The notes below the pieces were generated by a model. The model was not told the DNA's origin. It searched no databases and saw only the letters and a list, made by a program, of their open reading frames with translations. A DNA stretch of 64,000 bases from Schizochytrium sp. TIO01 (lineage: Eukaryota > Sar > Bigyra > Thraustochytrida > Thraustochytriidae). Within the stretch, counting starts at the first letter, position 1; each line of letters opens with the position of its first letter. The position numbers were made by a program, and so were the translations under genes. Of this stretch, positions 15,227 through 40,414 are shown one piece after another. The DNA is taken from contig SMSO01000033.1 in the NCBI GenBank assembly GCA_004764695.1, forward strand, positions 2,681,001 through 2,745,000, written 5' to 3'.

Positions 15227-18200
15227 ATGCCCCCTGTATTTCATATAGAAGACATTAGTCGGTTCACCGCTTTCGTTCAGTAAGTGTATCAAAGCAAGCT
15301 CATTTGGCATAGCTAGTCACATTCAAAAGTCAAAAACCTTATGTAACATCCACTAACTTCTTGCACACTTAAATTATTGAGTGACAGTCTGAGTGAAAAG
15401 AACATTGACGATGTAGGCGCCAAAGCTCTCTCTGGAGCTCTGAAGAGCTGCAAATTTCTGAGGGAATTGCGGTACGTTTGGACAGCAAGCAACAGATACC
15501 GAGATTGTATTCGCATGAGAACGGTAAAGAGTGACTTCTACTCAAAAGTACCGAAGTTCAAAATGAATTAAACAACCTAAGCACTTCCAAGCCGTGCTCG
15601 GAAACAAACGTCTGGAAGACAAGTTACAATGGCACATGGATAATCAAGATAGAAATAGCTTGGCTGACGGTGGCTTGAGAACGAGATACACAGTCTGGGG
15701 GGTAACAACATTGGTGAGGAAGGCGCCAAAGCTCTATCTGGAGCTCTAAAGAGCTGCAAAAAGCTGACCAGTTTGTGGTACGTTTGAATGGCAAGCAAAA
15801 TAATGCTGAGATTGCATCCGCATGAGAACAATGAAAATGATTTCTTTTCAGAGCAATGTCGAAAAAAGCTATCTCCAAATTGAATTCAACAACCTGAGCA
15901 CATCGAAACATGCTTGAAAGCAATTGATTGACAGCGGCATGTGAATGACCAAGATGGGAATTTCTTGGCTGACGGTGGCTTGAGAACGATATACACAGTC
16001 TGGCAGGTAACAACATTGGTGATGAAGGCGTCAGAGCTCTCTTTGGGACTCTGAAAGACTGTGAACATTTGAAAATTTTGGGGTACGTTTGAATGGCAAG
16101 CAGCAAATACGGAGCCCGTGTTCGCATGAAATCGCAACGAGGATTTCTTTTCAGAGCAATATTAAAAATACCAGTCTCCACAATGCATTAAATCACCTGA
16201 GCACATCTAAACATGCTTGAAAGCAATTGATTTACAGCGGCACATGAATAATCGAGATGGGAATAGCTTGGCTGACGGTGGCTTAAGAACGATATACACA
16301 GTCTGGGGGGCAACAACATTGGCGAAGAAGGCGCCAAAGCTCTCTCTGGAGCTCTGGAGAGCTGTAAAAACCTGGCCTTTTTGCAGTACGTTTGAACAGC
16401 AAGCAAAATATGCTGAGATTGTATCCGCATGAGAACGGTAAAGATGATTTCTTTTCAGAGCAATATCGAAAATACCAATCTCCAAATTTAATTAAATCAC
16501 CTGAGCACATCTAAACATGCTTGAAAGCAACTGATTCACAGCGGCACATAAGTAATCGAGATGGGAATCGCTTGGCTGACGTTGGCTTGAGAACGATATA
16601 CACAGCCTTGAAGGCAACAACATTGGAGTTGCAGGCGCCAAAGCTCTATCTGAAGCTCTAAAAGACTGCGAAAAGCTGACCGATTTGTAGTACGTTTGAA
16701 TGGCAAGCAAAATATGCTCCTGAGATTGTATTCGCATGAGAAGCGCAACGAGGATTCATTTTTAGAGCAATATCGAAAATACCAGTCTCCACAATGAATT
16801 AAATCACCTGAGCACATCGAAACATGCTCGGAAGCAATTGATTCACAGAGGCACTTGAATGATTAAGATGGGAATTCCTTGGCTGACGGTGGCTTGAGAA
16901 CGAGATTCACAGCCTAACTGGGAACAACATTGGAGATGAAGGCGTCAAATTTCTCTCTGGGACTCTGGAGAGCTGCGAAAATTTGACAGAATTGGAGTAC
17001 GTTTGAATAGCAAGCAGCAAATACTCAGATTGTATTCGCATAAGCACCGCAATGAGGATTTCTTTTCAGAGCAACATCGAAAATACCAGTCTCCACAATG
17101 AATTAAATCACCTGAGCACATCTAAATATGCTTGAAAGCAATTGATTCACAGCGGCACATAAGTAATCGAGATAGGAATCGCTTGGCTGACGTTGGCTTG
17201 GGAACGATATACACAGCCTTGAAGGCAACAACATTGGCGATGTAGGCGCCAAAGCTCTCTCTGGAGCTCTGAAGGACTGTGAAGGTTTGACAGAATTGTA
17301 GTACGTTTGAATAGCAAGCAAAATATGCTGAGATTGTATTCGCATAAGTACCGCAATGAGGATTTCTTTTCAGAGCAACATCAAAGTACAAAGATCCACC
17401 ATGAATTAGATCACCTGAACACATCTAAACATGCTCGGAAGCAATTTATTCACAGAGGGACATGAATAATCATGATGGGAATAGCTTGGCTGACGTTGGC
17501 TTGAGAACTGTTGACACAGCCTTGAAAGGAACAACATTGGAGATGACGGCGCCAAATCTCTATCTAAAGCTCTGAAGAGCTGTAACAATTTGACCGATTT
17601 GTTGTACGTTTGAATGGCAAGCAAAATATGCTCCTGAGGTTGTATTCGCATGAGAAGCGCAACGAGGATTTCTTTTCAGAGCAACATCGACAATAACAAA
17701 ATCCACAATGAATTAAATCACCTGAGCACATCTAAATATGCTTGAAAGCAACCGATTCACAGCGGCACATAAGTAATCGAGATGAGAATAGCTTGGCTGA
17801 CGTTGGCTTGAGAACGATATACACAGCCTTGAAGGAAACAACATTGGCGAAGAAGGCGCCAAAGCTCTCTCTGAAGCTCTGGAGAGCTGCAAAAATCTGA
17901 CGGTATTGCGGTACGTTTGAACAGCAAGCAAAATATGCTCCTGAGATTGTATCCGCATGAGAACGGTAAAGATGATTTCTTTCCAGAGCAATATCGAAAT
18001 TACCAATCTCCAAATTGATTTAAATCCCCTGAGCACATCTAAACATGCTTGAAAGCAACTGATTCACAGTGGCACATGAGTAATCGAGATGGGAATCTCT
18101 TGGCTAACGTTGGCTTGAGAGCGAGCTACACAGTCTGAGTGATAACAATATTGGCGATGTAGGCGCCAAAGCTCTTTCTGGGGCTCTGGAGAGCTGCAAA

Positions 18201-21200
18201 AATCTGACAAGTCTGCGGTACGTTTCGTTGGAAAGCAGCAAATTCTGAGACCATGCTTTTATGAGAATAGCGAGAGGTGTTTAAGCACAAGATGCAAAGA
18301 TGTAATGCACGCTAGGACGAAGATGGTGTACAACGCTGAGAGAAAGCTACTTGCGTGTCCAAATCTGCGATCTAGATACTGACTATATCTTATGAACAAG
18401 GAGCACAGTCTTGAAAGTAACAACATCAGCATCAAAGGTGCTATGACTCTTTTTGTAGCACTAGGAGGTCACAAGAGACTGAAAGAATTGAAGTACGTTT
18501 AATTGATTACAACAAACAACCTTTTCTTCTCAAAGGGAAGATCGAAGTAGAGTGGAAGCAAGAAAACGATTTTCAATTTCGAACAAAATCTGAACCCTCG
18601 AATTCTGCAGAGAACGACAGATTTTACATTACAGTAGGAAATAGTGAAAGAGTTGAAGTGTTTGAGGTGATGCTGGTGGCGCATAAATGATTAAGGTGAA
18701 TATGGTTTGACTGACTTCGTTTGACCACCACAATGTAGTCTTTTACACAACGCAATCAGGATTGAGGGTAGTAAGGCCCTCGCGGATATTCTACATGAAG
18801 TATGTCCTGCTTTTCAGATTTCGTAAGTGCCATTTCCTCTGTCGGTAATAGTTTGTGCAGAATCGTCCTGGCTTCATTTACCTGATTCGGTTGAGTCGAT
18901 AGATCATGTCTACAGCATAGATGGTTGTTCTCACATTTATCTGATTAGTTTTAATTATCATGATGCAGGTCCGAGTTTGATAAACTTCCCATCCACAAAA
19001 ACCTAATCGCAACTTTGTCTCTTGGGAATGACCCAAGTGAAATATCTACTTATGGTGTGAATGCATCTTCGTAAGTTCCCTGTGTTGCTAAAGAGTTAAT
19101 TCTTTAAGATATGGCCGTCAAGATTTCAAGTATCCCTGACCCGCTCGTTTATACATTCATACACTATTTAGAGATCAACTAGACAATCCCAACGCGAGCT
19201 TCTCTGATGTAATAGAGTTCGCCAGAAAGATCTCCAATCTTCGCACAAGTGTTGGAGGAGTAAGAGGAGAATCCATGCGCGCCAGTATTGACGTGCTTAA
19301 AGAATACGTCACGGCTCCAATTTCATCTGCAATCCAGCGCTATATTGAGCAGTTGAGGCTTCGACAATTTTTTGGAGACATTGCAAATGCAAAGGCTTGC
19401 CTGGAAACACTTCAGGAGAAGATTCGGAAGAGCCCTCCATCCGAGCTGTTGCCTAGTCTCATAAAGGAGCGAGACGCTGAAAAAGTACGCTTACAATCAC
19501 TCATGCAAACCGTATCCCCTTGGCTCCGGGAGAAAAGCTGCGAAAAAGACGAAGACTTAATGCGAGGACTGAAAGCAAAACTTCAAAATGTATCTGAGAA
19601 TCTGGACACAAGCGATGCGTCTCTCCGTCAAGAGACATTCGAAAATGACTTGCAACAAATTGAAGAGCTCGAAGACCGTGTCAAGGCATGGCTAGAAGAG
19701 CGTAAGACGAGAAGTGAGTCAGCGTCTGCCTTTAAACAGCAGAGTATGCAAGCTCTTGAAAAGCTAACATCCCGGGCATCTGAATTAGGTCTCGGAGATG
19801 TTTTCACTCTTGCTGTTGGAACGCCTGAAAAAGCTACAGATATAGAGGGAGAGCTACTGAGTCTTCGGGGTGCCCTTCAGGAAGAACTCAATTTTCTACA
19901 AGACGATACCCTAGAGGTGCAGATGAAGGAGCTGCTTTCGACGGTCAGCTGTATTCTCAGGAATTTTGAAAATTTAGCTGAAAAAAAAGGTTTTGATGAG
20001 ACGGCCTTTCATTCACCCAAGGCTCTTATTGACTTTGTTTTGTTGGGTTCTCGTGAACCAAACCTTTTGCACCTTGAGCAACTATATAAAAAGCTCGAAC
20101 TTTCGCGGGATGCTATAGAGATCCTGAATAGCTTGAAAAGGGTCAAAGATCTTGCAGAGAAGGATGCAAAGGCGAATACAGAGCACTTTAAAACCCTGAT
20201 TGCACAGCAAGAGATGATTCTCTCAGACGGGACTCCTATTGAGCTGAGTAAAAGAATTCGCCATAAGCTTGCTGAAACATTGCAGCATGCGCAAGAGCAT
20301 TTTCCGGAGCTACTGAAAGACAATGATTGGTTAGAAAGACTGCATGTAAGTGCAGAAGATACTTTTGAAGTAGCTCGCTCGGGGCTCTGGTTGGCGAATG
20401 TAAAAGTCTCGGACTACCAGTTTGTTGGAGAGCCTCTCGCATCTAGAGGCGGCAAGATGGTACAAAAGATACTCGACACCCATGGTCGAACTTTCGTTCT
20501 TAAACAATTTCAGCTCGGAGATATGAGCCAATCCAAAGCGTTTTACAGACAAGTTGCGAATCTAGGAAAGGTGGCGTCGCCGCACGTGATCCAAATCATC
20601 GGTGCTTTTGTAGATGCCCCCGCTCCCGGAATGCCGCCGCGAGGATGCATTGTAATGCCTTACTATGAGCATGGTGACCTAGCCAAATGGATTGTTGAGC
20701 ATACTAATGAAGACAAAGCGGTTCGTGATCGGCTTGCAACAGGCTTGCTTATTGGAATTGCAGAATTCCATGCGCACGGAATCGTGCATTGTGATATCAA
20801 ACCAGAGAACATTTTTCTCACAAGTAACGGAACTCCATTGCTTGGTGATTTTGACGGCATAAAACTCGCAGACTGTACAGCAACGTACACGTCTCTTCAA
20901 GCTACACCGCATTATATTGCCCCTGAGTTACGGAATGGGCCGGTAGATGTATTGAAAACAGCGATGGACATGTATTCGGTGGGTGTCGTGTTGGAAGACC
21001 TGTATCCTGACCCAACTCCTGAAATGCTAGAACTTATTAATTTGCTTAAAGTAGCCGACCCTGATCAGCGCCTCAGTGCTTGTGAAGCGCTCCAGCACAA
21101 AGCATTTGGCGCTACAGAAATTGCCGTGGAGACGTGCCTTGTGTGTATGGAGGAAATCAAAATTTCTGAAGGGACGAGTTGCGAGAAGGGAGACTTTCTT

Positions 21201-21860
21201 TGTAAGAATTGCCTTGAAAGCTCAGTCGCAGCTGCTGCTGAGCCCCAAGCCTCCGTGAGGATTGATGCTGATGGGGCGATGGCATGTATTAAGCCTGAGT
21301 GTAGTGGACGAATCCTTGGCAGAGATATCACCCGACTTGCTCCTGATGCTGTCAACCACCTTTTACGAATCGCCCAGACCAAAGTGGAAAGCGAAGCAGC
21401 AATTCGAGCCGAGCGAGAAATACAAAATCGTATGGCTCAAATTTTACAAACGGAGGGATTGGCTCAATGCCATTTACAGCATATCCAGGAAGAGATTTTG
21501 AATATATGCTGTCCACACTGCAGAACTTGTTTCGACCAATTTGATGACTGCTGTGCAGTTGAATGTGGTAATGCTGCATGTGGCCATTACTTCTGCGCGT
21601 GGTGTCTTCAATATAAGTCGCGGGACAATTCTGCTTGTCACAGCCATGTAAGAACATGTTCAAGGAAGCTTGGAGATGATCCATTTTTCCCAAATTCATT
21701 TGAGCAGGTTCGGGAGGCGTGGCAGCTAATACGAGCGGAGCGTCTCCGGGAGTATTGGAGAGCAAACATTAAGGACAGAAGTCTTCCAGAAATTCTGGAA
21801 GCGCAGCTTGTGCCTATGCTAACCCAAGATCTCGTTGGCTCAGAATTTAGTTTGCAGTAG
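15227..21860 (+). CDS. LRR - coiled-coil - protein kinase - RING/IBR receptor-like protein, 14 exons
   Basis: Spliced model: 15227-15279, 15388-15471, 15694-15777, 15999-16082, 16302-16385, 16606-16689, 16913-16996, 17217-17300, 17520-17603, 17827-17910, 18134-18217, 18409-18492, 18739-18822, 18969-19070, 19172-21860. By this count there is one start exon, eleven regular LRR exons, one degenerate LRR exon, one cap exon and the long last exon. All introns are GT-AG and phase 2, and the sum is 3852 nt (1283 residues) with no internal stop. Each LRR exon is 84 nt, i.e. one 28-residue ribonuclease-inhibitor-type LRR (LxxNNIGxxGAKALSxAL, then xSCxNLTxL). Residues ~423-790 are coiled-coil. The kinase spans ~797-1034 (VLKQF lysine, HCDIKPEN at 927, DFD at 947, APEL). 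A zinc module follows from ~1042 (CLVCMEE, then CCPHC, CGHYFCAWC). Start: the only ATG after an in-frame stop. Expected to be a cytosolic sensor with kinase and ubiquitin-ligase output; that role is inferred. Confidence 0.85.
15388..18492 (+). repeat. Array of eleven ~305-bp exon-intron cassettes, one LRR per exon
   Basis: Exon starts recur at 306, 305, 303, 304, 307, 304, 303, 307, 307 and 275 bp. Every unit holds an 84-nt LRR exon, a donor reading GTACGTTT, an intron of about 191-223 nt and an acceptor ending CAG, mostly ACACAG. The first nine introns can be aligned by eye along their whole length, with recurring blocks such as GATTTCTTTTCAGAGCAA and GAGCACATCTAAACATGC. Their length hardly varies (219-223 nt). 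Intron similarity this high means the cassettes duplicated recently as whole units. The last cassette (exon 18409) and the following LRR exon (18739-18822) have diverged in both exon and intron, so they are probably the oldest part. Confidence 0.92.
19172..21860 (+). CDS. Terminal exon of the LRR gene: coiled-coil, kinase and RING/IBR module
   Basis: This exon is open from the acceptor at 19171 to the TAG at 21858-21860. An internal ATG at 19275 would give an 861-residue protein if used alone, for example from an alternative promoter. Within the 861 residues, 1-370 are heptad-rich helices and 375-612 the kinase. The kinase keeps the beta-3 lysine (VLKQF), catalytic HCDIKPENIF and APEL. Its DFG is DFD, the glycine loop is unusual (EPLASRGGKM) and the alpha-C glutamate appears to be Gln (YRQVANL). 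The C-terminal 240 residues carry two Cys/His clusters, CLVCMEE..CEKGDFLCKNCL and CCPHCRTCFDQFDDCCAVEC..CGHYFCAWCL, separated by a helical linker. This is the layout of RING-between-RING-like E3 ligases in protists. Confidence 0.88.
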
Positions 21861-25340: not shown

Positions 25341-26816
25341 TCATTTCGTTTCAATATTTATAATAGCCTCCGCACTAGGCCCAGATCTCTCAACCTGAGC
25401 ATCAAAATTGCGGAATGCAAGTATAACTAAAGGTACATGACGCCCAACAGAACCTAAGAGCCACATGTTCAGTGACGTAGCAAGCTCTGACCGAAGTAAA
25501 GGCTGAAGTTTTGGCTTTGATGGTGAAACATGAGTGACTCCTTCGCCATTCTGTTGCTGATTCGAATCGTTTTCTAAAAAGAAGCGAATGCCATCTTGCA
25601 AAGAATTTGGTACAAGACCGCGAGCTTGGCATGCTTGAACGAGATCTTCATCTGCAAGAGATCCAATTCCTTCCTCTGCAAGCAAGACATCTTCTGAATC
25701 TAGCTTGGCGATGTGGCGGGATAGGTGGTAACGCAGCATAGTGAATCGATATGAACCAAGTATAGACGTTGGTGATCCGCTGGACGATACATCCGCATCA
25801 AGGTCTAGGTCTGCGGATTTGACGCTGGTCGATGAAGAGAGAGAAAGGTGAAAGTAGTCAGCCAGGCGTTCGAGTTGAGCAAAATTGAGAATATCAAGAA
25901 GGTCAGCATCAGATATCTTGGCAATCAACACAGGAGATGCTTCACCGCCTAAAGATTCAACACGTGTTGCTTCCTCCAATAGTTCACGAACCTCTTTATA
26001 ATATGCGATTTGGTTTTTGTGCATAGAAGACACCATACTCTCCATAGCTCGCTTGAGATCTCGGTCCATTTGTCTCTTGAAATCCTTTTCATCCTCTGAG
26101 GTTTGAACAATCTTTTCCAATTCTTTACGCGGCGGCATATTAAAAGTGGTTGGCAAGGTGCTTGGCAAGTACCGTGCCATTACCGGAAGCAAAAGACTCC
26201 CTCCTGGGGCAGCTGCGATGATTGCAAAGGGTATAAGCTTTGCAAGGTCTAGCACTGTCCTTACTACAAGCCGTTTCTCCCGCCGCGTGAGCCTGCGGTT
26301 TATGTCTACGACACTTGACTTGATAAGATCGTATGCGACAGAGATATTTGTGAAAAATTTTCGCAAACCCACGCGGTAGGGGACAAGTGCCTCTTGTATC
26401 TTTTGCAGCCTCGAAGTCTCTGCTCTTGGTCTCATTGTGGCACTGCTAATCTGCACCTTATGGGTTGCGGCTGACGGAAATTCCGCTCCGAGTCCTGAAG
26501 ATGTCTTCGCGTGCGAGCTTGCATGCGTAGGAATTGAAAGGTCTCTACTCACAGTCCCGCGCGATCCCATACCGCGGTCCATATGCACATTTTTTAGCGC
26601 TGCTCTGGTCACCCCTTTCGCAGAACCCTTTGCTGTTGACGAAGAAGTCGAAGTTAAGGAAGCTGAGGCCATCCTCATGAAAGCGAAGTGGTGGTTCGCA
26701 TCCAGTCCGTCATGCTCGCGCAGGCTTGGAGCACCTGCATAGGGATGCAAGACCAACGCGGGCCCGGCGTGAGGACGCTTGGAGGTGGCAACTCGGCTGC
26801 AGCGGAGCACCTGCAT
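25341..26816 (-). CDS. LETM1-like mitochondrial inner-membrane protein
   Basis: 491 residues. The N-terminal ~130 residues are Arg/Ser/Ala-rich with few acids, as in mitochondrial targeting sequences. The LETM1 hallmark lies at residues ~174-226: RRLTRREKRLVVRT, then DLAKLIPFAIIAAAPGGSLL and LPVMARYLPSTLPTTF. This is the single proline-rich transmembrane segment of the family followed by its ribosome-binding-like domain. The matrix domain (to ~430) is helical, with ISDADLLDILNFAQLERLAD. LETM1 proteins mediate K+/H+ or Ca2+/H+ exchange and keep mitochondrial volume; some bind mitoribosomes. No EF-hand is visible in the C-terminus, so this is a short LETM1-domain (LETMD1/Mdm38-like) form. It shares a convergent 3' end with the upstream gene. 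Confidence 0.9.
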   Translation of the reverse strand: MQVLRCSRVATSKRPHAGPALVLHPYAGAPSLREHDGLDANHHFAFMRMASASLTSTSSSTAKGSAKGVTRAALKNVHMDRGMGSRGTVSRDLSIPTHASSHAKTSSGLGAEFPSAATHKVQISSATMRPRAETSRLQKIQEALVPYRVGLRKFFTNISVAYDLIKSSVVDINRRLTRREKRLVVRTVLDLAKLIPFAIIAAAPGGSLLLPVMARYLPSTLPTTFNMPPRKELEKIVQTSEDEKDFKRQMDRDLKRAMESMVSSMHKNQIAYYKEVRELLEEATRVESLGGEASPVLIAKISDADLLDILNFAQLERLADYFHLSLSSSTSVKSADLDLDADVSSSGSPTSILGSYRFTMLRYHLSRHIAKLDSEDVLLAEEGIGSLADEDLVQACQARGLVPNSLQDGIRFFLENDSNQQQNGEGVTHVSPSKPKLQPLLRSELATSLNMWLLGSVGRHVPLVILAFRNFDAQVERSGPSAEAIINIETK

Positions 26817-29800
26817 GGTAGAGAGCTAGAGGATTGTAGTAGCCATCCTTTTGAAGCTGTGGTAATTCATGCATTCGTTTATCCATTCGCTACCTAGGAC
26901 CTTCCTAGATACCATATTTCTTCTCAGAAATCATACCAGAATTCGAGAGTGCAGATTTGCATTTGCAATGTGAGGCAATATTGGTATGTGTCATGGCGAG
27001 GCTTGTGGGAACCCTGGCATACGGGCAGTTCAGAAGTAAAGTCCGCATGCACATGGGCTTGTCAGCAGAAGGAAATTGAGGTAAACAAACGACGAAGGAA
27101 GGACATAGAAACGAGAATCCTTGTAAAGAATAGCGTGAGCAATACTAATGTTATTGGTCGCTGAAAGAAACGATATGCAGGCAAAACCAAATTGGTATGA
27201 TATGTGGACAGAGGAATGAGTAGTTTGCTTTAGTCTATCCCGATCAAGCAATCTTGTAGCTTTGGATATTGGATACGTATTATAACTCTGATGTGCGGGG
27301 TATATTTAAGACTGCATGCCGATTTGCTTTTAAAGTTAAGTTTTATATGCGGAAAACTTAAACATGTGAAAGTTTGCATTACCGAAGAAATGCAGAAGCA
27401 TCTTTGAAGCTCGAGCTGATTTTTAAAGAAGGAAAAGGAAGACTGTGCCAAGCTTTTATTGAAACTCTATAATATGTAATGAAACTATAAATCTCTACAT
27501 CTAGGTATATAAAAAAATAAATGACTAGTTGCTCTCTTTCTTCTCTTTGTTCGGGAGTGGCAATTGAGATCCATTCCATACTTTAGGTCTAGTGCCGCTG
27601 CCGCGGAAAGGAATTGTCAATATCTCAGGTCCGTGCCTCGTCGCCGTCATCCGCGTTATGCACGGTCTTCTTCAGATCAATTAACACGCTATATTTCTGT
27701 TCAGATTTATCCCCACAACTAAGGTAGAATGAGAGATCTTGTGCGTTCGTTGTGGCACTGTTGTGGATCTCGCTGTGCCTCGAGTACTCCATTCTCACAA
27801 AAACTCATTAAAAACAAAAAAAAATCACACTAGCTAGCTTACGTTTTATGGCAAGCTCGACCCGCACAGCCCATTGATCAATGCTCACTTCGCTCATTCC
27901 GAACCGCGTTTTCAGTGGAAAGGATGGCGCATAACAGAGGTCTTTTCTTCTTCAGACCCACAGAATTGCCAATGCCCTCTTTGACAAACCAACTTAACAA
28001 TTCATGGTATGCTTGATTTGCTGGTCTTGAAGACTTCAGTGACGCCTCCAACCTGAAAGAGCTTTCACCTAGAGCAAGCTTCACAGTCTGAGTCTCCAAG
28101 ATGCGCAAAGGCACGCAGCCGACTTGATCTTTGTCGCGATTCCGAGATCTTCGAGTTCTTAGGAACTCGAGCCAAAGCGAACAAAAAGGTAATGTAATAG
28201 CAACGAACAGTAAATTATTAAATGTAAAAAAAGAAGAAAAAAAAGCACAATTGAAAGTGCGCGCTAAGGCTCCGTATTGGACTCCTAAGGGGCCTGCCGA
28301 AATGCGAACTTTCACGATCAAAACCTGTTCAAGATTGACGCTGCAAACTCGGTCAGCCTGCTATCCCGTGCCAGGGAGAAAGCTCTCACGGGCTGTCGCG
28401 TGGCTCCTTTGCCTGGCAAGCATCTTCCCGCCTCCGGGGCGTGTCTACCATTTGGGCCGCGAGCGGTGGGAAGTCCAAGTTTTCGATGGGAAATCCTCGC
28501 GTTGGGTCCCGTGCCACATCGCATTATATTACTTTCCATCGCCATTACATTACCATCGCCATGATCGCGCGAATACAATTTATTGGGCAAAGCACGTACA
28601 ACGCGTGGCGACGAAGTGGACTCAATCCTGTTCGACGGCCGCCTTCATCTCGCTGGGATGTTGCGTAGTTTTATTTGGTTCTCGTTTCTGGCAGAGTTCT
28701 TCAAGTTGCTGACAATAAATCGTCCCAGAAGGAGTCCTCATGCAAACCACTCGTGGTCTTCATTTCATAACTTGGCCAAGGCACGCCCAATGGAGCGCTG
28801 CATTCATGTCGACGGAGATCATCATGAATGCAGTGCCATCATATCAAGTTGCCACCGGAATGGATTCTTGTCGTCGCTGGCTTCAGCGAGACCAATCCAG
28901 AGTCCAGCGATATTCGACGTACCTGCTGAGTCTACTTTAGCAATATAAAACTGCATTGTGCTCAAGTTCAACGTCAAGTTTTGCAGAAAACCATCATGAC
29001 GCATAAAGCTCATGAAGTCCACAGAAACTTAGAAGGTCACTCTCAAGTTCGCAAAGCTCGCTCTTGGGTAGCCTGGTCCACCCATTGCTTCGCACACAGG
29101 CTCAGAGGTGAAGGTTCTCGAGGCGGCACCTGGCTTCAATGCAAGCGTTGCACTCGACCAGAACACCGCATTTGACGACGGGTACAGCTGTAGAATCGCA
29201 CCATCGATGGCAATTCATTCATCAGTCGAGTTTATCCCAATTTAGACTTGAATTCCATCGATCAATTACCATAAAACGACCCACGAATAACAAAAAACCA
29301 CTCCTCATGAGAAACAGGCTCCTACCTTACCGGAATACGTGCACTGCACTCTAAAGCCATCGCACCTCCTAGACGCCTTCTACCCTCAACCCTAGTCCTG
29401 CAATACTTTATGTCCTCTAATCCGCGCCCCTTCTTCCAAGTACTCCTACTTTTAATACTATGTGCGGCTAGGCGCTCCGAACTCGTGCACAACTAGGTCG
29501 ACGCCCGCGCTTGTTGCCATATTACTCCGTATACTCCAGTGCTCCTGTTCTTTTAATTTGGGATGCAGAGTGAAAAAGGATTTGAGAGTCAAAATCTCAT
29601 TCAGAGTGAGGGGCAAGGGCAATTTAAGACCGTCTTAAAACCTGTCGAACTGTATTTTAATTGAGGACGAAGGAGGGGCGGCCTAAATTGTGCGCACGCG
29701 CAGGGGGCATAGTGCAAGTTATCAGTACTTCACGCGCACGTGCGCTTAGCAAATGGGTAAAAGAACAGAGGGGAATGGAGTCGGGGAAATTAATACTTCG

Positions 29801-34286: not shown

Positions 34287-36703
34287 TCTCTTACACCCGC
34301 CTCTACAGAACTCAAGGAGACCAAGCAGTCCACCACTGCAGCATTCGGGTTTGTCGTCAAACCTCTACTAAAATATCTTGGTGCGGCCCTCACCACAAAT
34401 ACACTAAAGTAAAATCACCATACAAACTCAGGTCGGGCGTTGACTTTCCTTAGGGGTACACGACTTTGCAATTACCACATTCGCACTGCTCCTATGGATT
34501 TTACTATAGAAATCCATGCTAACAAATAGACAGTAGAATCGCGATCCAGCCTACCTTCTCAGAACACACTCTCGTACAGGACTTTGATATTTAATAAGTC
34601 ATTGATATTTTTTATATATTTCAAGTCTGGTATGAGGTGCCAAATTGTCACGCGCTCACCATTGGCTTCGGAATTGAATTGCTCTTCTATCTTTAAACTG
34701 AATTTCGGTTCTGCGTTGATCCAAAATCAGCAGAAGTCCTGTGAGAGCCCCGTTTCCCCGGTTCGCGTCTTTGAGTAGAAGCAGAGCTTGGTTTCTCTTT
34801 TATTTTTTTGCGAGGCAAGATTTTGTTAAAGACAGACGCGTCAGGCGGCGCGGGCCAAATTAAACTCTGCATATAAACTACTAGACGATAAGAGGTCCCA
34901 TGCGTGGCAAGTTGGCTACGGATTGCGACTCCCTCTGCAAGTGCCGGCAAACAAACCTTAATCAAGTTCAAGGTGAGTACTGCTGTCCAGAGTTTCCAGG
35001 TTCGACGAAAAGGTTTAATCTCTTTCCAAGTTGAAGATCGAGTCCAAGCACAGCATCCAAGATCTCGTTTAAAGGCCAAGGTCCAAGGTTTTGAGAACCA
35101 TCATGATTATTGCAGGAAGTTCATTTGGGTGGTGTTGCCAGAGAGTGGCATACAAATTCGGCAAACACCAGATCGTAGGGGAACCTCAAGGCCATGTGCT
35201 TGATGAACTGGGAAAGACCGTCTAAACTCATATCTACGAACATCTGAGTCATACCTCATAAAGGAGCCTTCAACGTGTGGATAAGGAGAGGGAAGGTTAT
35301 GTGGGTGCATATTCACGATGTTGAGGTTATTCGTAATACTACGTATCTAGCTAGGCGCAAGTGCATAATACTGATAATGAGTGCACTTAGTACTTAAGAC
35401 GCTAAACTCGAAATTGACACAGTCTATGTGTGCACGTAAGACCTTCAGGCCATGGTACAGAAGAGCTATTTATTCGAGTACTCTTACTTTAAAATTGATA
35501 AGATAATGGCACGAGCCAGTTTCTACAGGGTCGATAGGAACTTCTCAAACTAGTGAGAATCAGTCGACGTCGAAGCATTGATAAAAGTAGCATCAGTAAT
35601 ACCACTACTATAAACAGTAGCAGTAATAGTAGTAAGAAGAAGCTGCCTAGCCTGAGTATTAAATTACATTTAGGTACCTGCAACCAATGAAAAGTTTGCT
35701 CAGGGCGTCTCGAATCTCTGTTCAGGTTGTCTCCGCTCTGCCAGGGCGAAATATGGTGCCCCGTGATTTGTCAATGAAGGCTCTTGTTTAATAAGTGATA
35801 ACGTTATAAGAATGGCTTCAATCTTGTCGTTTGTAACATCTCCATCATCTAATGTCGAGGAGGTCCCATCCGCATGAGGCAAGAAGAGCAAATCGTACTG
35901 CCTACAATGGTGAATCTACCAATCCTGTCATTTGAAGAGTTTAAAGCATACCACTCATGGCATTTAGACGGCCCAATCCTGGTGCAGGTAATAGTCTGAA
36001 GATTTGCTAGTGCTATCAGGGTGTGCCAGTTCATTTATTTTCAACTTGAAGTCGAGCCCTTTAGGTTCATATAGTCTCTCTCAAGGTATGCATGCTCATT
36101 GCTCGGAGATGTTGGAGAATAATAATATTTATATTCAACATAGAGGTACTTCAATAGAATGCTAAAACAGTACCAGAGGGTTACATGTCTCAAAGCTAGG
36201 CCTTTTTTTAGATACCATAGTGAATACAATACGAAAGCTAATTATTGTATTCAGATTATTGTGCTCAGTGTGATCCAGCTAATGCTAAACGGAATACGCC
36301 TTGCGCAGGAAAGGCTTGAGCAATCAAAGTCATCATTGATGCGAGACCCAGCAGTTGATGAAGCTGGAAGTTCTATACTCAACGGATCTACAACTCCTCT
36401 GTCTTTGTTTACTTTTTTTTTTTTGAGAACTTTTGACTAAATATATAAAATTTATAGCTTACCTGTGAATAAGTCTACGCTTAGAAGTTGCTTATTTTCG
36501 ATTAAGTTTATGTGTGTCAAGTGCTGTTGTAGTTGGATGTGCAGAATTGTAGTGAAATATTAAGGCAAAGGAAGACAAATATATACCTTTATAGGTGCAC
36601 TGAATAAGAACAAAAAGTAAGGAGGTGCCATTGGAGGGGAAATCTCAATCGATGCCTACCGGTTCGTGGCGGTCGGAGACTTTTTAAGATATCACATGCG
36701 AGG
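34287..36703. other. 2.4-kb divergent intergenic region
   Basis: Between the EF-hand gene (-) and the LRR-kinase-TIR gene (+), so it holds both promoters. It is AT-rich with a TACTG/TAGTA-rich stretch at ~35590-35640. Short open frames carry no recognisable domain. Confidence 0.35.
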
Positions 36704-39700
36704 ATGAGCTTTGATGCGGCATTGAAGCCATGCGTGGTCAAAGCACTCCAAGACATTGACAAGGGCGAATCGGAGATTATCCTGAAGGACGTTGGACTCT
36801 CATATGAGGAACTATTAGCGGTGGCAAATGCTCTCAAGAGAAACCTCACGGTACGCAAACTTGACCTTTCAGGCAACGCCACGCTAGATGCAAGGGCGGG
36901 CGACATTCTTCGATCTTTGCTAGAAGTGAACGCCTTTCTTGATGAAATTGATCTCTCAGGCTGCTCAAAGATTGGCCCTTCGGGTATTAGCGAAATTGCG
37001 AATGGCCTTCGAATCAATATGACAGTTCGTACGCTTCATCTGCGGAATACGGAAATGGGCGGTTATCTTGGTACACGTCGATTATCAAGTGCCTTGCGCA
37101 CTAATAAGTCTCTCGAGAACCTCGACCTGCGTATGAATGGACTTGGCGTACAAGGTGCAAAACATCTTGCCAAAGCCCTTGTTGGCAACACAAGTTTGCA
37201 ATTCTTGAATATCAGTGAAAATGATATCACAGACGACGGTGCGGTGATGATGTCGAAGACTCTTCGAATGAACCGTAGCTTGGAAAAACTTGATATGTGG
37301 AGAAATGGTATTGGAGAGCATGGTGCTTCACATCTCCGAGAAGCTGTACGAGAAAATTCGGTTATTCAAACTCTCAACACAGAAAACGTCATCCATCGCA
37401 ATGACAACGCACGGCGTATCATCGGGCAACGTGAAGCCCAAAGCCCAGCCGTAAAACTGACACCTCTTGAAAGGAGATCGATGCAGTTGTTTCGGTGTAT
37501 TTTTCAGCACCAGGGTTGGCACGAAGATGATCCAGACACGTTGCTTGAAACCGATGAGCAGGAGGAGGCACCTGACAAAGTTGCAGCTATTATCAGCATG
37601 GTAGAAGATATTATACCAGAGGAGAACCGAGATGTTGAAGTGGTTCTACCATTGAGGTTTTCTCCAGAGGCTTTTCGTCTTGCCCATAACGACACCGAAC
37701 TCTTCGTGTGGTGCATTGAGCAGCTTGCACAAGCTGATTGCTACAGCAAAATGCTAGATGAACCCCTCAAATCAAGTCGCCTTTGGCTTCAAGAGATTGA
37801 TGGTGAAGCGATGCCTATGGCTCACCTTATTATGAGCAGCCGAGAATGTGATGGCGGTGTTGAAAAGTTATGCGAAGCGATTTTCAATCATATGACAATT
37901 GACGAAGGCAGGAAATTATTCAAAGCGAAGGACAGCGCAGGGCGTACATTTCGCTCTCTTGCGTCAGGACACGCTAGCGAGAGCATCGTAGCATGGGCCA
38001 AAGGGTACGGCACCTATCTGCTGCGTTATGATATTGTTGATGGCCCGCCTGTTCACGAAAGTAAAACATGTGCAGTTCATTTTGCTACGGACATTCTTAC
38101 TGAACAAGAGGTGGCTTTGAAAATTATGAAAGATCCAGAACAGTTTCGAAACGAACTTATCTCTCGGGACCTCATCAAGCCAAGTGATTCATTTGAATCC
38201 CTTCCAGATGTTATTGAAGCTAGCGAGTGCACCGTCAAACTAATGACGCATGTCGTCCCAATCGTCCGAGCGCATTGCGCAGATCGGTGTGTTGTAATGC
38301 CCCGTGCAACTCGTTCGCTCTTTGAAGCGATCAATACAGAACAATTTGTCTCTCGGCAATTAGGTAAAATCCGAACAATTGCGTATGCGCTGGCGATTGC
38401 ATTGCAAGAATTACAAGAAGGAGGACGAATTCACGCAGATATCAAACCACGAAACTTTGTTCGTGTTTCAAAGAGCACTTCAGATACATTTGCAGCAGAA
38501 AACGGAGCTCTTAAGCTGCATTCAAAATGGTTTCAAGTTCGGCGTGCTTCATTGAGATCTATTGAGGGAAGTGGAGGTGAAAATTCGAATGATGAGAGTG
38601 TTGTTGGTGAGGACTGGCAACTCATCGACTTGGATGCATCTGTGGCTATAGGAAGCCCTGCAGGTCTGAAACACAGCAGCGGCTACTGCCCTCCAGAGTT
38701 AGCTCGCGAGTTATTTCCGGCCGGGGCTAGTGGTACTGTTGTGGCTGCTTCTAGCTTTGATGTTTGGAGTTTTGGGGCAATTTTTTACCAGATGCTTTCA
38801 GGTACAAAGCTTTTCATGGTTGACGAAACTGATGACAACTTAGTTTCATTTCATCAAAAAGCAGAATTAATTAACTGGATTACAATAGATCGAGATCGCT
38901 TAGCTCGCATTCACAACGAAGAATGGGCTCGTTGGGAAACAGAATACGCAAAGGATCTCGTACGTGGCTGTCTTATGGGCGACCCTAAAGAGCGTCTCAC
39001 AATCGACGCTGTATTGAAGCACCCATTCTTCACAACAGCAGAAGGCAAACCAGCTCTGGCGTCAGCACCTGAAAATGCCCCCCTGAATGCCGTTTCGGAA
39101 AGCAAAGATGGCGTGGAGAGCTATGCGTCTCCTAAAGACGCGACTAAACGCATTCTGTCTTTCCGTGTCAAAGTGGAGCCTGCAGGTGGAAGCTCGTCTC
39201 GCGCGAAAGGATTTCCGTTGCGTCGACGAGCCGAGCTTGAAATGGTGTATCCTCAGCGATACCACTTTTTCTTGTCTCACATGCAGAAGGAAGCTGCCGG
39301 CATTGTAAAAGATTTATATCTCAACTTGACAGAAGCAAGGTGTTTGGCTTGGATTGATATGCATGCCGAAGATCTTACACAAGATTCGATGCGGCATGGT
39401 GTCGAAAACTCGAGCTTCTATTTACTAGTCTTGACAACAAATGTACTTTTTAGACCTTTCTGTGTCATGGAGCTTTTCTGGGCGATTACTCATCATGGTG
39501 AAGATTCGGATAAAAAGATTGTATTCGTAGTTGAGGAAGACGGGAGGTTTTCTCCCTGGGATGCTGAAATAGACGTGCCTTGGATCTCGGACAAGGAGTA
39601 TGAAGCAGTTCTTACAAAGCGCGGTAGACTAAGTGCCGAGGAAATTCAAAAGAAGGTGGATGCCTTCAAACTAGCCTCCAAACAGCTTCGTGCGGGCATG

Positions 39701-40414
39701 CAGTCACTTATAGAGTCTGATATTCGGGCAGAGGAAGGTCTAACGGTTCAGCTGGTTATGGATAGCGCGAAGAAATACGTGACGCAAGGTGCCAAAATCC
39801 CGTATCGGCGGCGAGGGTACGAGGAAGCAGCCATGATTGAGGAACTTCTCGCTCTGTGTTCTTACAGCTCACCTCATATTCTTCGCGATGCTGCAGTCGG
39901 CTCAATTGTTAGTCATGATAAAACATCACCACGTGATGTTTACATCCTGTACCACGAGAGTGGCGCCTCTATGGCCAAAGAATTCGCCAACTCAATGAAA
40001 GAGAGGCCTCTTGTAAAGTTACATGAAGAGTACTTTGAGATGCAGCCTCAAGTACTGGCAACAGCTATGTCACAAAAATTGCAGCGTAGAGTCAAGCCAG
40101 ACACATTGCTCATCATTTTGCTCAAGGATGGTTTTTTCAAAGGAGGATCAACCTTGCAAACAGTGATGCATCACTGGATCTGCGAGGAAAACCGTCCTTT
40201 CATCGTTTTACAGTACGATTGGTCTTTTGGTGGTCCAGAACAAGAAGCCATCGAGCCAGAGCTTCGAGCAGCTCTCTTTGATTTTTCAGAGATCGTGCCT
40301 TATAGAAAACTTGAAAGACATCATGAGCACTTTGCGATGCTCAAAGAGACAAAACGGAGACTTATGCTCACAGCTCTTCGATATGAGACTGCTCTTTCGG
40401 GCAAGAAGAAATAG
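36704..40414 (+). CDS. LRR - protein kinase - TIR - TIR-like signalling protein
   Basis: 1236 residues in one uninterrupted exon; ATG in the context AGGATGA. Residues ~15-230 are about seven ribonuclease-inhibitor-type LRRs (VRKLDLSGNATLDARAGDIL, LENLDLRMNGLGVQGAKHLA, LEKLDMWRNGIGEHGASHLR). Residues ~230-430 are helical. Residues ~434-775 are a protein kinase with VALKIM (beta-3 lysine), FRNEL (alpha-C Glu), HADIKPRN (577-584), DLD in place of DFG (642), PPEL and a closing HPFF. Residues ~852-985 are a TIR domain: YHFFLSH opens it, and FCVMELFWAI supplies a glutamate (E923) at the position of the NADase Glu of SARM1 and plant TIRs. Residues ~1076-1210 repeat the TIR topology (DVYILYH ... TLLIILLKDGFF) without that Glu. 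Likely a cytosolic sensor that couples LRR recognition to kinase and possibly NAD+-cleaving output. The domain order is seen; the activity is inferred. Confidence 0.87.
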   Translation: MSFDAALKPCVVKALQDIDKGESEIILKDVGLSYEELLAVANALKRNLTVRKLDLSGNATLDARAGDILRSLLEVNAFLDEIDLSGCSKIGPSGISEIANGLRINMTVRTLHLRNTEMGGYLGTRRLSSALRTNKSLENLDLRMNGLGVQGAKHLAKALVGNTSLQFLNISENDITDDGAVMMSKTLRMNRSLEKLDMWRNGIGEHGASHLREAVRENSVIQTLNTENVIHRNDNARRIIGQREAQSPAVKLTPLERRSMQLFRCIFQHQGWHEDDPDTLLETDEQEEAPDKVAAIISMVEDIIPEENRDVEVVLPLRFSPEAFRLAHNDTELFVWCIEQLAQADCYSKMLDEPLKSSRLWLQEIDGEAMPMAHLIMSSRECDGGVEKLCEAIFNHMTIDEGRKLFKAKDSAGRTFRSLASGHASESIVAWAKGYGTYLLRYDIVDGPPVHESKTCAVHFATDILTEQEVALKIMKDPEQFRNELISRDLIKPSDSFESLPDVIEASECTVKLMTHVVPIVRAHCADRCVVMPRATRSLFEAINTEQFVSRQLGKIRTIAYALAIALQELQEGGRIHADIKPRNFVRVSKSTSDTFAAENGALKLHSKWFQVRRASLRSIEGSGGENSNDESVVGEDWQLIDLDASVAIGSPAGLKHSSGYCPPELARELFPAGASGTVVAASSFDVWSFGAIFYQMLSGTKLFMVDETDDNLVSFHQKAELINWITIDRDRLARIHNEEWARWETEYAKDLVRGCLMGDPKERLTIDAVLKHPFFTTAEGKPALASAPENAPLNAVSESKDGVESYASPKDATKRILSFRVKVEPAGGSSSRAKGFPLRRRAELEMVYPQRYHFFLSHMQKEAAGIVKDLYLNLTEARCLAWIDMHAEDLTQDSMRHGVENSSFYLLVLTTNVLFRPFCVMELFWAITHHGEDSDKKIVFVVEEDGRFSPWDAEIDVPWISDKEYEAVLTKRGRLSAEEIQKKVDAFKLASKQLRAGMQSLIESDIRAEEGLTVQLVMDSAKKYVTQGAKIPYRRRGYEEAAMIEELLALCSYSSPHILRDAAVGSIVSHDKTSPRDVYILYHESGASMAKEFANSMKERPLVKLHEEYFEMQPQVLATAMSQKLQRRVKPDTLLIILLKDGFFKGGSTLQTVMHHWICEENRPFIVLQYDWSFGGPEQEAIEPELRAALFDFSEIVPYRKLERHHEHFAMLKETKRRLMLTALRYETALSGKKK

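Follow-up and report, generated by a model that had tools for sequence, protein, structure and literature searches.

A stretch of 64,000 nucleotides from the thraustochytrid Schizochytrium sp. TIO01 (contig SMSO01000033.1, positions 2,681,001 to 2,745,000; hereafter the window) carries, at 15,227 to 21,860 of its forward strand, a gene in which an array of leucine-rich repeats (LRRs), each encoded by its own 84-nt exon, is joined to a protein kinase and two RING-like clusters. The gene belongs to a large family, whose members are probably soluble intracellular recognition receptors that exchange LRR exons and respond through the kinase-RING part. The organism seems to carry dozens of related recognition-protein genes with exchangeable one-repeat exons. 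The recognition role is inferred; it would most likely be defence, and next most likely allorecognition.

The predicted gene consists of 15 blocks connected by 14 GT-AG introns, all of phase 2. Joining the blocks listed in the first-pass annotation of the window bore out its stop-free frame of 3,852 nt, which amounts to 1,283 codons and a stop with no internal stops, and the predicted fifteen-exon, all-phase-2 model is regarded as confirmed. Twelve exons are exactly 84 nt long, eleven regular and one degenerate (the twelfth, 18739-18822), as had been claimed, and in the joined frame they support the proposed coding of one LRR per exon. LRR exons 1-10 follow each other at a spacing of 303-307 nt. 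A strict pattern (AG, 84 nt, GT and the LRR residues), which is narrower than the gene itself and reaches 8 of its 12 84-nt exons, has eight matches on the plus strand of the window, all in this gene, none on the minus strand and none in 200 dinucleotide shuffles of 15227-19172. Exon 1 encodes 17 residues plus the first two bases of the next codon. Its pattern (ATG, I.DI at fixed residues, GTRRGT donor at +53) was found upstream of the LRR exons in 14 genes, the window gene plus 13 of the 20 paralogous loci (L029, which duplicates L011, is not counted); the 282 kb examined have no further instance on either strand. Because most single matches of the exon-1 similarity scan do not exceed the null by score (null maximum 23), this test is carried by the fixed position of the donor. 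Chance assembly of exons was rejected, as the LRR-exon pattern is absent from the shuffles and exon 1 with its fixed donor recurs in paralogs. None of the 17 paralogous loci scanned showed a counterpart of exon 14 (18969-19070). The fusion of LRRs, kinase and RINGs is independent of the splice model, since a Logan contig of 4,357 nt, which may be genomic or cDNA, encodes about ten LRRs, a linker, the kinase and both RINGs in a single open frame (P0056, 1,240 residues).

The architecture had been called non-standard. The gene is not a one-off; it has a large family at home and relatives in Hondaea. Across the 37 contigs (64 Mb) of the genome the C-terminal exon is matched at least 52 times, with 51 of 274 candidates scored. 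At least 26 places, the window included, span no fewer than 784 of the 895 residues of this exon; a 27th is the copy on contig C24 of the end of C32. In 20 stretches surveyed upstream of family kinase exons, two or more 84-nt LRR exons precede the kinase exon in 19; L027 shows none because its kinase exon sits at the edge of the stretch. The C24 copy (L029, C24:1-9000) aligns with L011 at the C32 end over 8,978 columns without a mismatch and with 5 gap positions, contains in-frame stops and was excluded from the counts; probably these contig ends carry homopolymer errors, or the two contigs overlap. Further observations on the family are the following. L025 and L026 (C30 and C5) derive from a segmental duplication of recent date; they share 99.1% identity across 4,493 columns including the kinase exon, with changes of intron length within the LRR array. 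A paralog 125 kb upstream of the window gene on the same contig (L030, not in the statistics) has six 84-nt exons at 423-525-nt spacing. An LRR-exon array at C5:13 kb has no kinase match, and beyond the array the sequence reads N.

The variation within the repeats is concentrated on a few residues. In 91 internal exons of 17 genes (a set that omits L012, L014, L027, L028, the last or cap exons, window exons 11-12, exons lacking a GTACGT donor, L021 excepted, and length variants of 72-99 nt), residues 2, 3, 26 and 28 have entropies of 3.38, 3.21, 2.75 and 3.32 bits. The next most variable residues (8, 5, 20 and 25) reach 1.37-2.07 bits, and the Leu, Asn, Gly, Ala and Cys residues of the scaffold are nearly fixed. 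Residues 26, 28, 2 and 3 flank both leucines of the strand (x-L-x-L-x-x-N), which we take, following established LRR structure, to be the concave face. The codon of residue 28 is split by the intron. Each variable exon is flanked by an intron of roughly 220-370 nt, so that every repeat comes with its own neutral yardstick. In eight paralog arrays (L009, L010, L011, L013, L015, L016, L017 and L024) the introns differ by 0.6-4.7% on average, and the proportion of nonsynonymous differences (pN) at codons 2, 3 and 26 is 0.26-0.69. The ratio of hypervariable-codon pN to intron divergence has a median of 18.5 (bootstrap 12.8-27.4), the L011 value of 115 being derived from 2 introns.

Seven of the genes, lying on six contigs (L010 and L011 are both on C32), were combined into a pool of 48 introns and 51 exons. 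L017-L023, L025 and L026 stand outside the pool: L017, L019, L021 and L022 belong to other intron groups, and L018, L020, L023, L025 and L026 have no intron comparison. Introns of the pool differ by a mean of 0.0422 within and 0.0434 between genes, scaffold nucleotides by 0.028 and 0.025, and variable nucleotides by 0.58 and 0.60. The last exons of the same genes (21 pairs) have a proportion of synonymous differences (pS) of 0.11-0.23, with a mean of about 17% from rounded values, and a pN of 0.03-0.09. These values indicate that the arrays have been homogenised between genes far more than the kinase exon has, and that the binding face has not been homogenised. At the sequence level, the kinase-RING exon is shown to be under purifying constraint. 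The nearest neighbour of an intron lies in the same gene in 0.50 of cases versus 0.15 after shuffling; since half of the introns are closest to their own gene, tandem duplication acts as well. The pattern fits concerted evolution of a common exon pool together with diversifying selection, as reported for the HNWD receptors of fungi. Retention of the introns for a function of their own was rejected as the main cause of their similarity, because those of L017, L021 and the window gene diverge by about 50% from the pool.

The same data bear on the idea that these genes are a multigene family in decay, partly subtelomeric, with repeats that are free to diverge. When the 52 rows are merged into 43 places (C24 copy excluded), 11 of them lie less than 100 kb from a contig end against an expectation of at most 11.6% (P 0.008; a single contig of undefined length was scored as distant from any end), some places are fragmentary or contain stops, and some LRR exons have length changes or frameshifts. 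LRR exons of 72, 78, 83, 96, 97 and 99 nt also occur in the family, and lengths not divisible by three would break the frame unless the exon is skipped. Decay is nevertheless a most improbable account, and the apparent constraint has largely refuted it: 25 of the 26 near-full-length copies are free of internal stops (one contains them), the pN of the pool's last exons is about a third of their pS, and the scaffold residues are nearly invariant.

The two ends of a repeat vary separately. Codons 2-3 are linked with each other (z 4.4), as are codons 25-28 (z 4.8-9.4), and codons 2 and 3 show no link with 25-28 (z -1.3 to 1.5); 33 x 25 types give 49 combinations among the 51 exons. Weaker links connect codon 5 with 8, 26 and 28, and codon 8 with 27 (z 2.3-3.3). 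At the variable sites nearly every residue is written with a single codon, unlike in the codon use of the genes themselves: codon 2 has TCT in 11 of 11 Ser and GGT in 9 of 9 Gly, codon 26 has ACT in 28 of 28 Thr, and pairs using the same codon make up 0.73-1.00 versus 0.31-0.37 in simulation. Such usage favours reuse of variants from a limited stock, rather than new mutation at random. Three observations count against this: few variants are common to different genes, Leu codon 27, which lies between two variable codons, has high synonymous variation too, and the variation drops abruptly at the exon border, from 0.58 and 0.53 at exon bases 83-84 to 0.00-0.01 in the first eight intron bases. It is conceivable that a dedicated mutagenic or template-driven mechanism, aimed at both exon ends, generates the variable codons; DGR-type hypermutation was among the possibilities considered. 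The sharp border, the raised synonymous variation at codon 27, length changes at codons 2-3 and the scarcity of 5' variants common to different genes would all be in keeping with it. We consider it very unlikely, as the near-single codon per residue speaks for a restricted set of variants, splicing constrains the first intron bases and the assembly contains homopolymer errors.

Exchange of exon variants under selection, the explanation preferred here, would also involve the gain and loss of whole units. Because every LRR occupies a single 84-nt phase-2 exon, gain, loss or exchange of units can take place with the frame intact. L011 and L012, whose kinase exons are identical, differ by array gaps of 446 and 422 nt, each of about one exon-intron unit. 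They also differ by a 14-nt indel, small gaps, seven substitutions that lie in a cluster and others dispersed close to the truncated end. A bolder picture, which we hold to be rather doubtful, is that of a genome-wide recombining library of LRR exons: the introns would serve as exchange platforms between receptor genes on different chromosomes, the two end cassettes of each exon would assort independently, and a single-celled stramenopile would renew its intracellular repertoire at the pace of a dedicated diversification system, possibly also during mitotic growth.

The LRRs and the kinase of the first-pass annotation are both recognized by Pfam in the window protein (LRR_6 3.2e-58, Pkinase 2.9e-29). 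Lys444, Asp541, Asn546 and Asp559 of the kinase are invariant in 7 of 7 sequences, but the motifs read HCD and DFD and position 460 is Gln; the roles of these residues are our reading. The two Cys/His clusters had been described as RING/IBR-type. They do look like RING1 and RING2 of the RING-between-RING (RBR) class, but the IBR is missing: the 68-residue spacer between them has only one Cys and three His and is helical in the predicted model, and Pfam IBR_1 matched 2 of 10 members with a best E of 7.7, the RING matches being weak as well. The RBR profile search also gave matches taken as chance (e.g. KAT7 and IclR). When the whole last exon was folded, the predicted model had a predicted local distance difference test score (pLDDT) of 69 and the best 50 of 1,999 structural matches were all kinases; for this reason the C-terminus was folded separately, with a pLDDT of 88. 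Taken together, the C-terminal part looks like a coiled coil followed by a non-RD (HCD) kinase, a RING1 and a catalytic-type RING2 of the RBR class with no IBR. The proposed output by phosphorylation and ubiquitination thus stands at the domain level, with a kinase and E3-type domains present, but the E3 part lacks its IBR. NB-ARC, NACHT, ROC-COR and WD40 gave no Pfam match at E<=1 in either piece of the protein. On a simple hydropathy scale, which is not a signal-peptide program, no hydrophobic membrane segment was found; the top 19-residue value is 1.17 and lies inside the kinase. A transmembrane receptor, such as the plant-type LRR kinases, was rejected on this hydropathy.

The C-terminal clusters can be compared with the RBR E3 ligases RNF216, HHARI and parkin. 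RING1 resembles theirs by profile and fold, and RING2 by profile with the candidate Cys aligned. This Cys is the catalytic one in HHARI and parkin. The present family differs in being devoid of the IBR and in its fusion to a kinase and LRRs. It is possible, but quite unlikely, that the proteins are diversified ubiquitination adaptors outside immunity, whose LRRs choose endogenous or food-derived proteins for the RING module. A RING1-RING2 pair with an invariant candidate catalytic Cys, shared by several kinds of sensor, agrees with such a role; extreme recent diversification confined to the binding face is unexpected if the substrates are fixed and endogenous, and the non-RD kinase is left unexplained.

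The named close homologs of the window gene are from Hondaea. At least 20 proteins of Hondaea fermentalgiana, among the best 120 of 157 matches, have all or part of the output module, mostly behind other repeats. LRRs, kinase and RINGs occur together in P0056. Among the matches listed, Pfam finds ankyrin repeats in 10 proteins, LRRs in 3, both in 1, a C-terminal TIR in 1 and neither in 5. The TIR protein is P0048 (E 5.2e-13), the first residues of which read as LRR. Some of these relatives carry the source names NLRC3 or ankyrin protein. In Sphaeroforma arctica, a protein with a RanBP1 domain and a kinase has a RING-like tail from which some of the ligands are absent. As the output part is joined to ankyrin, LRR, TIR and other modules, it is probably older than the LRR arrays and has been coupled to several of them.

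Several observations weigh against the proposed family of exchanging receptors, beginning with the window gene, whose array is private and diverged. All nine matches of its intron family lie within the gene, at the sensitivity of the search; its introns are a median of 18% different, the scaffold 19% and the variable nucleotides 58%, and the ratio of hypervariable pN to intron divergence is 2.4. By sequence comparison the window array is an older one, expanded in place, with the same signature in weaker form, which puts its sensor outside the fast-exchanging group. The fast-changing sensor that had been claimed for this gene is found in its paralogs, namely the seven-gene pool, but not in the gene itself. 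In L021 (4 exons) the variable nucleotides show no excess over the introns (0.33 vs 0.40), and the contrast is weaker in L019 (0.55 vs 0.12) and L022 (0.67 vs 0.27). Pool genes have few variants in common, 3 of 39 types at the 5' end (codons 2, 3 and 5) and 5 of 25 at the 3' end, so exchange of entire exon variants from gene to gene shows up less than one would expect from the introns. L011 and L012 lie at contig ends, and their unit and T-run differences may partly be assembly errors. Selection was assessed by counting rather than by a likelihood site model. With its DFD motif and a Gln at the place of the usual alpha-C Glu, the kinase may or may not be active, the window protein has no NB-ARC/NACHT or TIR, and the TIR of P0048 could be a gene-model fusion.

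The family may be compared with several known systems, as far as the consulted parts of the papers cited here describe them. The LRR-ROCO genes of brown algae have 72-bp phase-2 exons, each encoding one 23-residue LRR, with exon shuffling and selected sites on the concave face (PMC11378527), which agrees with the precedent of constant-phase, one-LRR-per-exon arrays named in the first-pass annotation. Both systems are stramenopile and have a single phase-2 exon per LRR, shuffling and diversifying selection on the concave face; there the output is a ROC-COR GTPase, whereas here 84-nt exons encode 28-residue ribonuclease-inhibitor-type LRRs in front of a kinase-RING1-RING2 part. Arrays of 90-bp phase-2 LRR exons, for which ectopic recombination is inferred, occur in Tetrahymena (PMC6564038). 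They resemble the present ones in constant exon length, phase, variable number and the inferred recombination; the exons are longer, the organism belongs to another supergroup, and the consulted part makes no mention of a linked kinase-RING output. Plant non-RD LRR receptor kinases also combine LRRs with a kinase that has Cys before the catalytic Asp (PMC3411088), and differ by their extracellular LRRs and transmembrane segment, as no hydrophobic segment is found here. NLR receptors have an LRR sensor in common with the family, and NB-ARC/NACHT was not detected in it. The Hondaea kinases with ankyrin, LRR or TIR modules share the output part and mostly have other repeats in front. Repeats of the HNWD genes are not known to be interrupted by introns. 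In Podospora these repeats are exchanged within and between members, and four surface codons are selected (PMC1805685). Exchanged repeats, a homogenised scaffold and few hypervariable surface codons are common to HNWD/het-d/het-e and the seven paralogs, not the window array; the WD40 repeats and NACHT of the fungal proteins gave no Pfam match here. The present family appears to work like the LRR-ROCO, Tetrahymena and HNWD arrays, yet is a member of none, and its output differs. It seems to be a route to diversified immune-type receptors that evolved independently. No LRR receptors of thraustochytrids were found in the open-access literature searched, which is not proof that none are in print; a Thraustochytrium transcriptome paper mentions leucine-rich repeat once (PMC8917795). 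The same literature gave no description of a non-RD kinase with RBR-type RINGs as the output of an exchangeable-repeat receptor family.

By combining these observations it is possible to propose how the receptors might work. The LRR face would bind a variable non-self target, and binding would free the coiled coil, allowing copies to cluster. Partners or the bound target would then be phosphorylated by the non-RD kinase and ubiquitinated by the RING1-RING2 module, with defence or cell death as the response. The exon variants would be reshuffled by unequal crossing-over and gene conversion, with the near-identical introns supplying the homology, and diversifying selection would keep the binding residues different. 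Possibly, the ligand is something polymorphic that another strain produces, as for the fungal HNWD genes, and the receptors serve allorecognition rather than pathogen sensing. We regard this as unlikely: the exchange between members and the selected surface codons do match the HNWD pattern (PMC1805685), but cell fusion or incompatibility in this organism is unsupported here, and the data fit both roles alike.

Table 1. Features of the LRR-kinase-RING gene in the window, and its Hondaea relatives
Feature	Position	Strand	Basis
Exon 1, start codon, 53 nt, MPPVFHIEDISRFTAFV	15227..15279	+	joined frame; like exon with donor +53 in 13/20 paralogous loci
84-nt LRR exon 1	15388..15471	+	joined frame
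84-nt LRR exon 2	15694..15777	+	joined frame
84-nt LRR exon 3	15999..16082	+	joined frame
84-nt LRR exon 4	16302..16385	+	joined frame
84-nt LRR exon 5	16606..16689	+	joined frame
84-nt LRR exon 6	16913..16996	+	joined frame
84-nt LRR exon 7	17217..17300	+	joined frame
84-nt LRR exon 8	17520..17603	+	joined frame
84-nt LRR exon 9	17827..17910	+	joined frame
84-nt LRR exon 10	18134..18217	+	joined frame
84-nt LRR exon 11, more diverged	18409..18492	+	joined frame
84-nt exon 12, degenerate capping LRR	18739..18822	+	joined frame; similar last LRR exon with GTAAGT donor in most paralogs
Nine homologous 219-223-nt introns, LRR exons 1 to 10	within 15472..18133	+	exon+intron period 303-307 nt; matched only inside gene
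Exon 14, 102 nt, linker	18969..19070	+	joined frame
Last exon: coiled coil, kinase, RING1, RING2, stop	19172..21860	+	joined frame, genome matches
Helical, probably coiled-coil region	19173..20450	+	predicted model nearly all helical; confidence low in places
Protein kinase domain, HCDIKPEN (non-RD), DFD replacing DFG	20451..21059	+	Pfam, alignment, fold
RING1 of RBR type (C-x2-C ... C-x4-C)	21135..21302	+	profile and fold
Helical spacer where IBR would sit	21303..21509	+	predicted model, Cys/His count
RING2 (Rcat)-like cluster, invariant candidate catalytic Cys	21510..21659	+	profile
Hondaea relatives P0006, P0042-P0055, P0057-P0061: part or all of coiled-coil/kinase/RING output

Other genes were noted in the window and beside the paralogs. 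A second receptor-like gene (36608-40414, plus strand) is a single open frame of 1,268 residues with LRR_6 (6.7e-13), kinase (3e-19) and TIR_2 (8e-8) matches; its Hondaea homolog, 63% identical over the searched length, is named Protein NLRC3. A LETM1-like protein (5.8e-25) is encoded at 25341-26825 on the minus strand. Another family of 84-nt LRR exons, LxxNxIGxEGAKAVAAALKENRSLTSL with a GTAAGT donor, lies on the strand opposite the kinase genes at L019, L022, L025 and L026; the exon has at least 40 genome matches (40 of 548 candidates scored), several of them near contig ends. At L009, L011 and L023, on different contigs, an adjacent gene on the strand opposite the kinase gene has more diverged 84-nt LRR exons, mostly with GTGAGT donors.

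Receptors with exchangeable repeats, described in fungi, brown algae and Tetrahymena, are now extended to a labyrinthulomycete-type protist. As every repeat has its own yardstick, selection on exchanged variants and targeted mutation can be measured against each other directly in a protist. The relatives in Hondaea point to an immune-type system of modular design, in which ankyrin, LRR and TIR modules are placed on a single output.

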